Positions 1-19,817 of a DNA stretch of 35,118 bases are shown one piece after another. A program made the position numbers and the translations under genes. Origin of the DNA: Pseudomonadota bacterium (GTDB lineage Bacteria > Pseudomonadota > Gammaproteobacteria > Steroidobacterales > Steroidobacteraceae). The notes under the pieces are model-generated. The model ran no database searches. It was not told the origin of the DNA and saw only the letters and a program-made list of their open reading frames with translations. The stretch spans positions 1 through 35,118 of the forward strand of contig CANGFV010000009.1 of NCBI GenBank assembly GCA_947453225.1, in the 5' to 3' direction. The stretch's first letter is position 1. Each line of letters opens with the position of its first letter.

Positions 1-985
<985 letters not shown>

Positions 986-11836: not shown

Positions 11837-12790
11837 TCAGTTCCCCTTCGGGTGATGTGCGGTGTAATCAATAGCTTCGGCGAGAGTATCGAGATTTTCT
11901 TTCATCTCGACCTCAAACTTATCTGCCGTGTAGGCGCCGCCGGAGATATGCGACAAGGAATACATTTTCACGCCCGTTGCCGCTTCGATAGGCTTGGACA
12001 AGCCATTAGCGAAATATTTCTCAGCAAACAGTACGCGCACATCCGCTTTTTTGATTGCATCAATCGTATTAGCCAACTGACGTGCAGTAGGCGTAACACC
12101 ATGACGCGGCTCGATCACCGCAGAAATTTTTAAGCCGAACTCCTGCATTAAATAATCATAGCCCGCATGCATGGTGGCAGAGCGAAATGCTGATAAATCC
12201 AACTTAGCAAAACGCGTCATGAAATCCGCACGCAAGCGACGAATACGAGCCGCATAAGCCGACGCATTACTGCGGTAATATCCCGCGTTGACTGGATCTA
12301 ATTCACCCAAACGTCTAGCAATTTCAAAAATCTGCTGAATTGCGGCGGTGGTAGACACAAAGGTATGTGGATTAACTATTTTTGCATTGCCTTGATCACC
12401 ACTAATCGGAATCAATGCCACCGAGGCATTGGCATAAATCAAAGGTAAATTGTCTTTACGCCCTGCGGCTTTGATAATTTCAAACGCCCATTCATCGTGG
12501 CCAATACCATTAACCACCAAAGTGTCCATGGTCATCGCGCGCTTCATATCGTTCGGCTGAGGCTGATAATTATGTGGATTCGATTCAGCATCAATAAGCG
12601 CAATCACTTCAGCTCTATCACCGACAATATTTGAGACAAAGCTGTAATAAGGATGCAGGGTTACCCCAACCTTCATCTTGCCTTTCAGGGTCAATGCGCC
12701 TGTGGAATTACTTGCCGCCCATGTGGAACTTAGTCCCATCAAAGCCAGTAACAAGACAACACAAAACTGTTTGATCATTTGCTTAACCAT
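11837..12790 (-). CDS. Metal ABC transporter substrate-binding protein (ZnuA/FpvC-like)
   Basis: Periplasmic binding protein of the ZnuA/TroA cluster, 317 residues with a signal peptide of about 26. Candidate metal ligands are present: H73 in SNPHNYQP, H98 in GIGHDEW, H142 in NPHTFVS, H208 in MHAGYDY, and the acidic residue E257 in LFAEKYF. No long His-rich loop typical of high-affinity zinc ZnuA is present. The ATG at 12790 overlaps the end of the upstream gene by eight bases; a second in-frame ATG lies at 12778. It is the first of two binding proteins flanking the ATPase and permease genes, and unlike the other it keeps the metal site. Confidence 0.9.
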   Translation of the reverse strand: MVKQMIKQFCVVLLLALMGLSSTWAASNSTGALTLKGKMKVGVTLHPYYSFVSNIVGDRAEVIALIDAESNPHNYQPQPNDMKRAMTMDTLVVNGIGHDEWAFEIIKAAGRKDNLPLIYANASVALIPISGDQGNAKIVNPHTFVSTTAAIQQIFEIARRLGELDPVNAGYYRSNASAYAARIRRLRADFMTRFAKLDLSAFRSATMHAGYDYLMQEFGLKISAVIEPRHGVTPTARQLANTIDAIKKADVRVLFAEKYFANGLSKPIEAATGVKMYSLSHISGGAYTADKFEVEMKENLDTLAEAIDYTAHHPKGN

Positions 12791-13514
12791 TACCTTTGAC
12801 CCGCTCAACTTCACTAGCGCCGTTATAGGGAATGATTTGACGCCAGCCACGCGCTACCAACCCTTCAGGTTTCAAAATATCTGGGAACGGCGCATTAGGA
12901 TTTTTATGAATCCATAAGGTAGCCTGATTAATCCAATACACACCACTATGTGCATGACCAATCACAATTAAATAAGCGCTCTGTCCGGGCGCCGTGCCGC
13001 CTGAACCATAGTAGCTCGCCGTACCCTGCCCTAAAGTGCCTTGATACACGGCATTGGGCGCAACAAATGAAGCCAACCCATTATTGGTTTTTGGCGGTGG
13101 CGGCGGTGCGGCTTCACCGGTTTTATTTGCGCCCGGCATAATGACCTGCCACTTCACTTCACCATTCACCTGCCAAAAGTTATCTTCGTAAAACGGTGGC
13201 AGTAAGGTGTCCTGCAACTCAGCAATGCTAGGCCATCTACCCGTATCGTTATTCGCCCAAATGATTTCATCTGCTGCAGACAACAATGCACTGTGGATCG
13301 CCTGATCTACAGAACTTAAGCCATCAAATGAACTGACTTGCCAATCTAGTAACGGCGGTGGGCCTTCTTGCTTTGGCTTGAGTAATACATACGCTGCCGT
13401 GGTAGCCACCAACAAGAAAGTAGCAAGAAAAAAAACGATACTCTCGAGTCTCCCCGAGCTCGGCAGAATAATTTGAGTTCTGGGTGAGGTCCCAATATCG
13501 ACATTGACGCTCAT
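12783..13514 (-). CDS. Single-TM protein of the transporter operon (DUF6162-like?)
   Basis: Protein of unknown function, 243 residues. It has a short cytoplasmic N-terminus, one membrane helix at about 26-44 (SIVFFLATFLLVATTAAYVLL), and a periplasmic domain interrupted by a Pro-rich stretch (EAAPPPPPKTNNG). The outer domain contains VIGHAHSGVYWINQATLWIHKNP, with three His. I tentatively place it in DUF6162, which I recall next to metal ABC transporter genes. In position and topology it matches FpvK, the inner-membrane protein encoded just before fpvC in P. aeruginosa. Its ATG overlaps the TGA of the DUF4198 gene (ATGA) and it overlaps the next gene by eight bases, so it is embedded in the operon. 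The frame is open to 13616, but ATG 13514 fits the coupling. Confidence 0.65.
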   Translation of the reverse strand: MSVNVDIGTSPRTQIILPSSGRLESIVFFLATFLLVATTAAYVLLKPKQEGPPPLLDWQVSSFDGLSSVDQAIHSALLSAADEIIWANNDTGRWPSIAELQDTLLPPFYEDNFWQVNGEVKWQVIMPGANKTGEAAPPPPPKTNNGLASFVAPNAVYQGTLGQGTASYYGSGGTAPGQSAYLIVIGHAHSGVYWINQATLWIHKNPNAPFPDILKPEGLVARGWRQIIPYNGASEVERVKGNG

Positions 13515-14359
13515 CGCATGTCCTTGGCCTGAACCCATAACACCGCATCCTGAGATAAGGGCTTGCCTTGATATTCTGTCTTCGGCCCTACATGCAAGGC
13601 GCACACACCCCACCACCCTGCACGCGGTAAGCCGATTTCAAACACGCCATTGCCATCAGCACGCATACTCATATTGCCGTAAGCCGGATGTGGAGCAACG
13701 ACACTGGATTGCACCGCGAAGGCCTTAGCCTTCAAATCGGGGGCATGATTAACGTACTCAATTTCAATTTCGGCAAACGGAACGGGCTTACCTTGCGATA
13801 AGACCACACCACGGAACACGCCACCCACCCAATTGGCATACGGTTTGTTGAGCGGTTGAATTTCAGCCGGTAGACCTTGAGGTTCATGCCAATTGCCCGG
13901 CACCCCGCCGACATTCATCACCAACTTGGTGAATTGCTGAATATATTTATCCTCTTCTTTCTCAAGATAGGGCTCAGGTTCTAACATGAACACATAATCG
14001 CCCAAGGATCGCATCACCTCACGCGGAATGACGGCTTGATACGCGGCCGCTTGATTACCCACGCCCTGCCACTGGATAGGCTGCAAATATTGTTTCAAAT
14101 CGGTCTTTACGGGCTTGGCAGCATCACCGCGCTGGCTCACCACATGAAATGCCTGCGGCTGCCCCATGGCCATCGTCGGCCCACCGGCGAATGGATGAGT
14201 GAACACCAATCCCATCGACACCATCGCGCCACGTTCCAGTGCCGACTCCTCGACATAGAGCATTTGGAAATGCGCCATAGCTGGCGAAGCACATGTTATT
14301 AGCACCGCAAGAACCACACTGGATGCAGCCCATCTCTTTAATGCATTTATACACATCAT
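13511..14359 (-). CDS. DUF4198 / NikK-like periplasmic protein
   Basis: Exported protein of the DUF4198 family, 282 residues, related to NikK/CbtJ-type accessory proteins of cobalt and nickel uptake. The signal peptide ends SPAMA, so the mature protein would start His30-Phe-Gln-Met-Leu, an N-terminal histidine well placed for metal coordination. An N-terminal beta domain contains VFTHPFAGGP and GDYVFMLEPEPYLEKEEDKYIQQFTK. A C-terminal carboxypeptidase-regulatory-like domain holds VVLSQGKPVPFAEIEIEYV and RADGNGVFEIGLPRAGWW. The start has AAGG seven bases upstream. It lies nine bases after the NikL-like gene. In FpvGHJK-CDEF terms it occupies the FpvJ position, but that equivalence is inference. 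Confidence 0.82.
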   Translation of the reverse strand: MMCINALKRWAASSVVLAVLITCASPAMAHFQMLYVEESALERGAMVSMGLVFTHPFAGGPTMAMGQPQAFHVVSQRGDAAKPVKTDLKQYLQPIQWQGVGNQAAAYQAVIPREVMRSLGDYVFMLEPEPYLEKEEDKYIQQFTKLVMNVGGVPGNWHEPQGLPAEIQPLNKPYANWVGGVFRGVVLSQGKPVPFAEIEIEYVNHAPDLKAKAFAVQSSVVAPHPAYGNMSMRADGNGVFEIGLPRAGWWGVCALHVGPKTEYQGKPLSQDAVLWVQAKDMR

Positions 14360-17681: not shown

Positions 17682-18407
17682 TCATCCACGTCTGTAAGTA
17701 ATCACCAGCACATCACGAAATGCTGGCAACTTCGGATCAATGACCGAAACCGGAGTTACGCCATGATAAACCCGAGCATCATCCACATAAGCAGCATCTA
17801 GTGGGTTCACTAAAGTAAAACTGCCAATAAGTTGGCGATGTGCGTCATGAACGGTGGTCACCCCCTCTGCAATGTTGACGCGATTAATCAGTACCACCAG
17901 CACCCAATCCACGCCATCACGATGTAAGCCTTCAGGCGTAGGCTTACCCATCTGCCCATCGCGCGCCTCAATACGAAACTGATGGCATTCCACATGCCAT
18001 GACGTTGGTCGCAATTGGATAGGAGTCAATTGATTAAAAATATGATGACTGTGCATCAACAACGCCATCAAGCAGGAATGCGTAGCAATCTCATCCGCAA
18101 ACGGCTGAAACCAACGTTCAATACCTCCATTCAAGGCATTGTAATCACGGCTTTGGTAATGCGGCTGTGGCGGCTTGCGTTGAACACCTTTGCCAGAAAC
18201 GGCATAGGAATTAAAGCGCCTGCGGCGATACCGCCCACCATCCGCCATGTACGTATCCAGCCCGAGTTGATCCCAACTGGCTGCAAAATCTGACCAATTC
18301 TCAAGCGACTTCTCAGGCAATACAGAGCGCAGTCCTTGCGCAGGCACAAAGGCAAAGCCCCGCCTTTTTAGGCGCTCAATAATTTCATTAGGTAGTAGCT
18401 CACTCAT
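17682..18407 (-). CDS. 2OG-Fe(II) dioxygenase family protein (PF10014-like)
   Basis: Predicted non-haem iron, 2-oxoglutarate-dependent oxygenase of 241 residues. The metal triad is visible: H162-x-D164 in LHRDGVDW and H215 in VYHGVTP. A C-terminal arginine in FRDVLVITYRR probably binds 2-oxoglutarate. An Arg-rich RYRRRRFNSY (59-68) and WHVECHQFRIEA also fit this family, whose studied members such as BsmA and isoleucine dioxygenase hydroxylate free amino acids. The substrate here is unknown. ATG 18407 is used; a TTG two codons earlier is possible. Its TGA lies four bases before the start of the HupE-type gene, so the two are likely co-expressed. Iron dependence gives a possible link to metal uptake, which is inference. 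Confidence 0.82.
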   Translation of the reverse strand: MSELLPNEIIERLKRRGFAFVPAQGLRSVLPEKSLENWSDFAASWDQLGLDTYMADGGRYRRRRFNSYAVSGKGVQRKPPQPHYQSRDYNALNGGIERWFQPFADEIATHSCLMALLMHSHHIFNQLTPIQLRPTSWHVECHQFRIEARDGQMGKPTPEGLHRDGVDWVLVVLINRVNIAEGVTTVHDAHRQLIGSFTLVNPLDAAYVDDARVYHGVTPVSVIDPKLPAFRDVLVITYRRG

Positions 18408-18601
18408 GAGCAAGTAAGTATGCCGTCAATCATCTGCAACTGGTGAACAGTTACGTCATAAACGCACAAGAAATGTGCGCAAACCACCCGTGATGCGCTA
18501 TTTAGCGCCACCATAAAAATGGTAAAACCATTCTAAACTGGCCAAAACCGCAGAAATAGCACGGTTTTTGATTACCGCTCTCGATGGCACAGGCATTGCA
18601 T
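18408..18601. other. Intergenic stretch with small hairpins, no gene seen
   Basis: Left part of a 414-base stretch without a protein gene between two divergent genes. It holds a perfect hairpin GCGCTA-TT-TAGCGC (18494-18507), and repeated ACCAT/ATGGT units at about 18509-18530. A third hairpin, AAAACCG (18544-18550) with CGGTTTT (18562-18568), is followed by one more T and could be a weak terminator. Promoters for the dioxygenase unit (leftward) should lie here, but no clear hexamers were found. Confidence 0.5.
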
Positions 18602-18607
18602 TCTAAT
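18602..18607 (+). promoter_or_regulatory. Candidate -10 box of the small RNA
   Basis: TCTAAT matches TATAAT at five of six positions and would place the transcript start near 18613-18615, just before the first hairpin of the proposed small RNA. No good -35 hexamer stands at 16-18 bases upstream, so an activator-dependent promoter is possible. Confidence 0.35.
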
Positions 18608-18612
18608 TTATT

Positions 18613-18729
18613 AACAGAGTGTGCTACTCCCCCCTGCAACTCTGGCGAGGTCTTAAGAAGACCTCCTTTTACACGCCGCAAGAGCCAGTTCAGTACTCCG
18701 GACTAAACTGCTTTTTGCGGCGTTTTTTT
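18613..18729 (+). ncRNA. Candidate small RNA with C-rich loop and anti-SD-like segment
   Basis: About 117 nt that fold into three successive hairpins. The first, 18615-18644, pairs CAGAGT with ACTCTG, and TGC with GCA inside a one-base bulge, and exposes the 11-nt loop TACTCCCCCCT. The second, 18647-18665, is GAGGTCTT-AAG-AAGACCTC. It runs into CCTTTT, so 18662-18670 reads CCTCCTTTT, resembling the anti-Shine-Dalgarno end of 16S rRNA. The third is a strong intrinsic terminator (18673-18729). C-rich loops of this kind pair with ribosome-binding sites in several known small RNAs. It could instead be a long attenuator leader of fbp, whose ATG is 92 bases beyond the terminator. A 68-codon GTG frame crosses the region but reads through the terminator and looks spurious. 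Confidence 0.6.
18673..18729 (+). terminator. Strong intrinsic terminator upstream of fbp
   Basis: ACGCCGCAA (18673-18681) pairs with TTGCGGCGT (18715-18723). The inner arms CAGTT/AACTG (18686-18690 and 18706-18710) and AGT/ACT continue the stem, and seven T residues end it. It stands between the minus-strand dioxygenase unit and fbp, so it must end a plus-strand transcript starting within the preceding gap. That is the main support for a small RNA here. Confidence 0.88.
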
Positions 18730-18821
18730 ATGGACCATAAGCCAGGCTCAAGCCACGTGACGATTACGCTGCGCGATGAGATAAACTTTCCTCTTTATTC
18801 AAATCATTCTATCGGACAGAC

Positions 18822-19817
18822 ATGAGCGCCTATTCATCAAACAACCAACCCACGCTGGTCACCCTACAAGCACATATTCTTGAACAACAGACGCGTTTTC
18901 CTGAAGCTACCGGAACATTAAGCTGGATACTTTCGGCGCTGTCTATTTCTACCAAGATCATTGCCAATCATGTGCGCCGCGCACGCCTCGACGATGTATT
19001 AGGCAACGTTGGCAATGAAAACGTTCAAGGTGAACAGCAACAAAAATTAGATGTAATCGCTAATGAAGTATTACTGCGCACACTCGGTAAGCGCGAAGGC
19101 GTTGCGGTAGTGGCTTCAGAAGAAAACGAAGAACCCGTGATGCTACGCCAAGTGGGCGAGGGCAAATACTGCGTACTGTTTGACCCGCTCGATGGTTCTT
19201 CAAATCTAGATGTGTGCGGCGGTGTCGGTACTATTTTTAGCATCTTACGCTATGACAATCCCGCCCACAGTGAAAACGGCTGGCTACAAGCCGGTGCCAA
19301 GCAAGTGGCCGCAGGCTATGTGCTGTATGGCTCTTCAACTATATTAATGATGTCGATCGGTCTAGGCGTGGATATGTTTGTGCTTGATCCAGCGATTGGC
19401 GCATTTGTACGCGTTGCCGAACAATTAAAAATTCCACATAGCAACAAGAGTTATTCATTGAATGAAGGCAATCGCCTGACCTTCCCTGCAGGCTATAACA
19501 AATATCTGGATTGGGCGCAGGCTCATGGTTATTCGAGCCGCTATGTCGGCGCCATGGTGGCCGATGTACATCGCATCTTGCTGAAAGGCGGCGTTTTCAT
19601 GTACCCGCCCACACAGAAGGCACCTAAAGGTAAATTACGCCTCATGTACGAAGCCAATCCAATGGCGATGCTCATTGAACAAGCGGGCGGCAAGGCAATG
19701 GCGACGCCACAACAACGCATTCTGGACATTGTACCCACAGCAATCCATCAGCGCGTGCCAGTGATTCTAGGTAGCCCGAACGAAGTGGATCATGTCCTGG
19801 CTCATCTATCCGAATAA
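18822..19817 (+). CDS. fbp: Fructose-1,6-bisphosphatase, class I
   Basis: Gluconeogenic and Calvin-cycle-type phosphatase releasing phosphate from fructose 1,6-bisphosphate, 331 residues, the usual class I length. The metal site is LFDPLDGSSNLD (119-130), and the substrate and signature region GKLRLMYEANPMA lies at 269-281. The class I acidic segment is ASEENEEP (98-105). ATG 18822 has a weak GGA upstream. The only gene convergent with it is glnS, 37 bases away, with no clear terminator between. The upstream leader carries a strong hairpin terminator, so attenuation or an independent small RNA are both possible for its control. Confidence 0.97.
   Translation: MSAYSSNNQPTLVTLQAHILEQQTRFPEATGTLSWILSALSISTKIIANHVRRARLDDVLGNVGNENVQGEQQQKLDVIANEVLLRTLGKREGVAVVASEENEEPVMLRQVGEGKYCVLFDPLDGSSNLDVCGGVGTIFSILRYDNPAHSENGWLQAGAKQVAAGYVLYGSSTILMMSIGLGVDMFVLDPAIGAFVRVAEQLKIPHSNKSYSLNEGNRLTFPAGYNKYLDWAQAHGYSSRYVGAMVADVHRILLKGGVFMYPPTQKAPKGKLRLMYEANPMAMLIEQAGGKAMATPQQRILDIVPTAIHQRVPVILGSPNEVDHVLAHLSE

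Follow-up and report, generated by a model that had tools for sequence, protein, structure and literature searches.

The window, which is the whole 35,118-nucleotide stretch of DNA analysed (contig CANGFV010000009.1 of the Steroidobacteraceae assembly GCA_947453225.1, our source genome G000), carries a candidate small RNA locus between a divergent 2OG-oxygenase-like gene (17682-18413, minus strand) and fbp (18822-19817, plus strand), a class I fructose-1,6-bisphosphatase gene; both genes were named by reading. At the start of the window lies a 16S rRNA gene (1-985, minus strand, RF00177) that is cut off by the contig end, and the ORFs called there are spurious. The homologues described below come from genus g1 (G000, G001, G002 and G003), genus g10 (G176) and genus g17 (G019 and G061). 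The following features were placed at the locus.

18464 to 18478, no strand assigned: candidate NtrC-type enhancer box GCAC-N7-GTGC, GCACAAGAAATGTGC, within the palindrome CGCACAAGAAATGTGCG at 18463-18479
18585 to 18599, plus strand: predicted sigma-54 promoter TGGCAC-N5-TTGC (-24/-12), TGGCACAGGCATTGC, called on conservation, placement and the presence of rpoN
18611 to 18729, plus strand: predicted small RNA, start at about 18611 (18609-18613) and end at T7, modelled as 18613-18729; called on a fold z of -6.45, a covariance model and covariation
18615 to 18644, plus strand: hairpin 1 with the C6 loop (loop 18625-18635, C-run 18629-18634), the proposed pairing site
18647 to 18665, plus strand: hairpin 2, whose 3' arm contains most of CCTCCTTTT; two-sided changes in 6 of 8 pairs
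18673 to 18729, plus strand: hairpin 3 (to 18723) and T7 (18723-18729), a predicted intrinsic terminator supported by covariation

The modelled RNA (18613-18729) had a folding energy of -48.3 kcal/mol compared to a shuffle mean of -27.07 (z -6.45) and none of 200 shuffles equalled it, while the longer segment 18602-18735 gave a z of -5.31 against its shuffles. The three consecutive hairpins and seven terminal T residues named in a preliminary description of this DNA were both found. The T7 terminator was absent from the output of a simple terminator scan that accepts loops of 3-8 bases only; hairpin 3 is longer and is interrupted. Hairpin 2 with TTTT was ruled out as an early terminator as the T-run is interrupted in G001 and G003, and a conserved small protein at the locus was ruled out because the gaps among homologues are not multiples of three. 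The ACUCCGG of hairpin 3 was rejected as an extra seed, as a C(UCCG)G tip is possible there both by reading and in the folds.

Conservation was assessed by DNA and covariance searches. When 59 related genomes were searched at the DNA level, strong matches (E <= 2.4e-15) were confined to G000 itself and two of its three congeners, G001 (82% identity to the G000 RNA) and G003 (78%), where the copies sit between the same two genes as in G000. The remaining matches were short, with E-values of 0.06 or worse. The third other g1 genome, G002, is 84% complete and gave no fbp match either. A covariance model, R1, was built from the G000, G001 and G003 sequences and contains no promoter sequence. When 200 family genomes were searched with R1 (E<=0.01), five were positive: G000, G001, G003, G176 (8.8e-6) and G002 (0.005). 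The same model matched only G000 and G003 among 196 order genomes, and homologues are scarce in both sets. The g17 homologues G019 and G061 were found initially by the promoter pattern and later by R1 in a smaller search (E-values of 4.2e-4 and 1.2e-5, respectively); G019 was not reported by the family-wide search although it was included there. This resulted in a total of seven genomes in three genera (g1, g10 and g17). A pattern scan of contigs with named records returned 10 loci. By reading, four of these are copies of this RNA (two in g1, two in g17), five resemble chance or coding matches, and L096 is a further candidate with a C-loop. The four copies stand in metagenome assemblies whose isolate names read as a lake origin.

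The seven sequences were aligned (A8) by fitting them to the model. The alignment leans towards the model and its pair counts are flattered for that reason: 96.1% of cells pair and 17 of 36 pairs change on both sides, values that 0 of 500 shuffles reached, and the best slid version was 47.9% paired. All cells of the terminator outer helix were paired (100%), with two-sided changes in 4 of its 10 pairs. The stems and the C-rich loop were retained in relatives, and the conservation, covariation, terminator and precisely placed promoter together support the earlier proposal that the locus encodes a new small RNA whose loop is C-rich.

The preliminary description had also proposed two exposed motifs resembling the anti-Shine-Dalgarno (anti-SD) sequence, and the two differed in outcome. 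The first was confirmed. The loop of hairpin 1, TACTCCCCCCT at 18625-18635 (also given as UACUCCCCCCU), is exposed, with an unpaired probability of 0.98-1.0 for the bases CTCCCCCCT, and the C-rich first loop is single-stranded in 7/7 homologues. Six homologues carry 6-8 C in this loop, one of which may close the stem, and G002 carries CCUCUUCCUCCC; the C-run was constant and the loop flanks variable. The second motif, CCTCCTTTT at 18662-18670, was mostly buried. Its CCTC is taken up in hairpin 2 as the 3' arm, with an unpaired probability of 0.00-0.01, leaving just the last C and the T's free, and in the RNA form, CCUCCUUUU, it comes after the second loop with CCUC within the stem. A similar motif was found in the two closest relatives and in none of the four more remote homologues. 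In G000 loop 1 is the only C-rich loop; hairpin 3 of G002 carries a second CUCCCCC at its tip.

Promoter sequence and spacing were conserved upstream of the RNA. The 18 bases TGGCACAGGCATTGCATT (18585-18602) were 18/18 identical in the three closest species and the bases right after them differ. A -24/-12 sigma-54 promoter lies at the RNA start in all seven homologues, with the -12 C located 12-15 nt before the first base of the model (the modelled RNA start). RpoN sites of E. coli read TGGCACnnTTnTTGC (PMC8743547), and sigma-54 transcription usually starts 12 nt downstream of the site (PMC6606865), which places the predicted RNA start at about 18611 with hairpin 1 beginning at 18615. Because R1 contains no promoter sequence, the promoters of G176 and G002 are independent confirmation, and for G019 and G061, which were first chosen by the promoter-plus-C-run pattern, the model match is the independent part. 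TGGCAYN5TTGC occurred 17 times in G000 compared to 4 times for the reversed control, and rpoN gave one match per genome in 7/7 genomes. A simple sigma-70 scan of 18400-18900 found 0 sites against 0.6 expected by chance. The -10-like TCTAAT (18602-18607) noted in the preliminary description was not conserved and sits downstream of the conserved sigma-54 promoter, ahead of the predicted start, and a sigma-70 promoter was rejected. By these sequence criteria the region upstream of the RNA fits a sigma-54 promoter, and the sigma-70 -10 box is not supported. The exposed C6 loop would also suit a sigma-70-driven RNA that acts as a general SD blocker through two exposed anti-SD segments, but we consider that account highly improbable given the loss of TCTAAT, the sigma-54 element at fixed spacing in 7/7 and a second motif that is mostly paired and lost in four distant homologues.

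The published NtrC box is TGCACCAnnnTGGTGCA (PMC8743547), and a perfect box core was found before the -24 element in all four g1 genomes (at -121 in G000, -122 in G001, -121 in G003 and -131 in G002), retained amid otherwise diverged sequence. G176 carries a perfect box 65 nt ahead of its -24 element. The two g17 homologues, G019 and G061, had no perfect NtrC box, their best matches being 7/8. Approximately 16 nt downstream of the box, TGCGC at 18494-18498 (TGCAC in G002) is kept in the four species and is possibly a second half-site. NtrC scored above the curated cut-off in 7/7 genomes. The matches listed for G000 (11 of 15) were full-length NtrC and 10 receiver domains, and among these NtrC was the sole AAA+-containing match, that is, the sole full-length sigma-54 activator. 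The 8-base box core was not enriched in G000 (22 compared to 26 for the reversed control), and none of the 21 other box sites, most of which are inside genes, had TGGCAYN5TTGC within 200 nt downstream. The nearest second case (L228, contig C79 of G000) combines the box GCACTGACCCGGTGC with the imperfect element TGGCATGAGATTAGC before a glgC-like gene. Elsewhere in G000 (L146, contig C38, position 1501) a sigma-54 element, TGGCACGGCTATTGC, lies outside long ORFs and ahead of a small secreted-protein-like gene, with no NtrC-type box. Control of the sRNA by NtrC is likely.

A same-strand gene follows the RNA in 5/7 homologues. It is fbp in three of them, at 92-227 nt (92 nt past the terminator in G000), a narK-like transporter gene at 30 nt in G002 and a LysR gene at 39 nt in G176. 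These distances, together with G316, where a LysR gene comes straight after an NtrC box and sigma-54 element, would fit a sigma-54-driven 5' leader with an attenuator, its terminator setting how much transcription runs on into the following gene (fbp here) and no trans-acting RNA being made. We find this reading unlikely as the downstream genes are unrelated between genera, the next recognisable gene is convergent on the other strand in both g17 loci, and the sequence separating the terminator from fbp includes a conserved GATGAGATAAACTTTC-like stretch that looks, by reading, like a separate promoter. The GATGAGATAAACTTTC of the window (18775-18790) is retained in G001 and almost intact in G003, and may serve as a promoter for fbp itself. 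At most loci of a second RNA set in genus g21, described below, the next gene is on the other strand by ORF reading, with competing frames present. A stand-alone gene was the best fit to this layout, and the RNA may act as a leader in some species.

The window and the related loci were compared to Rfam 15 and to published RNAs. In the window nothing reached the gathering threshold except SSU rRNA, the best matches below it being Esr41 (19.5 of 102) and anti-hemB, and there were 0 matches among 16 homologue or C-loop loci. The weak match to anti-hemB (RF02837) over 18628-18731 scored 18.1 bits, below the gathering score of 49.5, so the RNA is not a member. Judged by comparison among genomes, this uncatalogued sRNA family, with its predicted sigma-54 promoter, looks real. 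Its size is similar to that of sX13 of Xanthomonas, which is in the ~115 nt class. sX13 has three stable stems and C-rich loops, a likeness to the RNA described here, does not depend on Hfq and represses mRNAs bearing G-rich motifs near the start (PMC3771888). However, sX13 has a C4/C5 motif in all three loops, is located at polA and is constitutively expressed, whereas the G000 RNA has one C-rich loop, lies between the 2OG-oxygenase-like gene and fbp and has a predicted sigma-54 promoter, a form of control that the available excerpts on sX13 do not mention (PMC3771888).

RNAs with nitrogen-dependent control offered a second set of comparisons. NrsZ of Pseudomonas aeruginosa is made under nitrogen limitation via NtrB/C and RpoN, as proposed here, but it is ~226 nt, is processed, activates rhlA and adjoins ntrC, and C-rich loops are not mentioned in the excerpts of that source (PMC8395346). 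NfeR1 (alpha-r14) of Sinorhizobium similarly has three hairpins, unpaired anti-SD motifs and an NtrBC link. It differs in carrying CCUCCUCCC in each hairpin and, according to the excerpted text, in being LsrB-activated and NtrC-repressed with no sigma-54 signature (PMC10746234). The motif CCUCCUCCC was absent from the RNA described here and the CCUCC of hairpin 2 was mostly paired. NfiR and NfiS of Pseudomonas stutzeri are nitrogen-responsive RNAs dependent on NtrC or sigma-54, as proposed here, but NfiR pairs with the nifD coding sequence through a G-containing stem-loop (PMC6606865). Burkholderia NcS25 was rejected as a counterpart, being described in the excerpts as constitutive and with no sigma-54 motif upstream (PMC10117139). 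A C-loop or anti-SD sRNA under NtrC/sigma-54 was not reported in the open-licence literature searched. The best reading is an sRNA that would work like sX13 but be nitrogen-controlled like NrsZ.

Candidate targets were sought among ribosome-binding sites. GGGGG-N3-12-ATG was counted 141 times in G000 (control 99), 293 times in G001 (control 187) and 258 times in G003 (control 157). Ordinary SD preference could explain this 1.4-1.6 fold excess of GGGGG before ATG. Seven of 30 GGGGG loci inspected were starts of open frames of at least 70 codons. Of 33 start regions in the window, with starts and names assigned by reading, one exceeded the 1% background (ORF 12783-13616, whose start is doubtful) and two the 5% background (also a znuC-like gene), about as expected by chance, and the start regions of ntrB and ntrC passed neither background. 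The target prediction suggested in the preliminary description, performed here as motif counts and pairing to the 33 window start regions, thus gave nothing beyond chance. A lexA-like gene (L202) with GGGGG ahead of its ATG is only a lead. That these checks found no targets, and that the loop flanks vary while the C-run stays, would agree with a decoy role, in which the C-loop captures a protein or the ribosome instead of specific mRNAs. We regard a decoy as quite unlikely, since sX13, a tested C-loop RNA, requires G-rich mRNA motifs (PMC3771888). By analogy to sX13, blocking of G-rich ribosome-binding sites by the C6 loop is plausible (PMC3771888).

The occurrence of C-loop loci was also assessed across the family and order. 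TGGCAYN5TTGC followed by C6 after 22-50 nt was found in 26/217 family genomes compared to 5 for the reversed control (counted by eye), and many of the single matches look like coding sequence or chance. A second RNA set was found in seven g21 genomes of the nine in the list (L084, L086-L090 and L094), with a sigma-54 promoter, a first hairpin, a second hairpin with a C7-C9 run and then a terminator. The g21 consensus fold recovered the first hairpin and the terminator and not the C-loop hairpin, which all single folds show. When applied to L080 and to four of the g21 loci (L086, L087, L088 and L090), R1 detected none of them. Weaker versions of the C-loop pattern were seen at three g11 loci and in G014. 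A perfect NtrC box was present at 6/7 g21 C-loop loci and at 11/19 C-loop loci overall, counts in which same-genus species are not independent, compared to 2.7% of random 260-nt stretches, a background slightly inflated because the sampled loci include C-loop loci themselves. Among unselected sigma-54 sites a perfect box was found in 2/30, both of which are copies of this RNA's promoter. The triple pattern of NtrC box, sigma-54 element and C5 matched 7/396 order genomes with a control of 0, and its spacing limits miss some known members. The match in G316, from another family of the order, was rejected as an sRNA as the C-run there belongs to the leader of a LysR gene (L168, 727 onward, where an NtrC-type box and sigma-54 element directly precede the gene). 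This LysR gene resembles the one 3' of the sRNA in G176 (L063). The locus L096, from a groundwater gammaproteobacterial assembly, has a sigma-54-like element, a C6-loop hairpin and a terminator from 1798 onward, with no perfect NtrC-type box.

On balance we favour an NtrC/sigma-54-driven trans-acting sRNA of ~117 nt that would pair through its C-loop with G-rich ribosome-binding sites. We infer that nitrogen limitation would lead to binding of phosphorylated NtrC at the box at 18464-18478 and to activation of sigma-54 RNA polymerase at 18585-18599, so that the RNA would be expressed from ~18611 to the T7 terminator at 18729. Hairpin 1, which is rigid, would then offer UACUCCCCCCU to ribosome-binding sites rich in G and block translation by pairing with them. 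More tentatively, NtrC and sigma-54 might repeatedly drive bare poly-C-loop sRNAs in the family (this RNA in g1, g10 and g17 and the second set in seven g21 genomes) as a nitrogen-starvation switch on mRNAs with G-rich start sites, and where no sigma-54 activator other than NtrC was seen, this RNA could be the principal strong target of NtrC. Both kinds of sRNA, the C-loop or anti-SD type and the NtrC/sigma-54-driven type, have been described separately. If the proposed reading is true, the covariance model and promoter signature could be used to find further such RNAs, and nitrogen status would be tied to the translation of messages with G-rich starts in bacteria known, as far as their records show, from metagenome assemblies.
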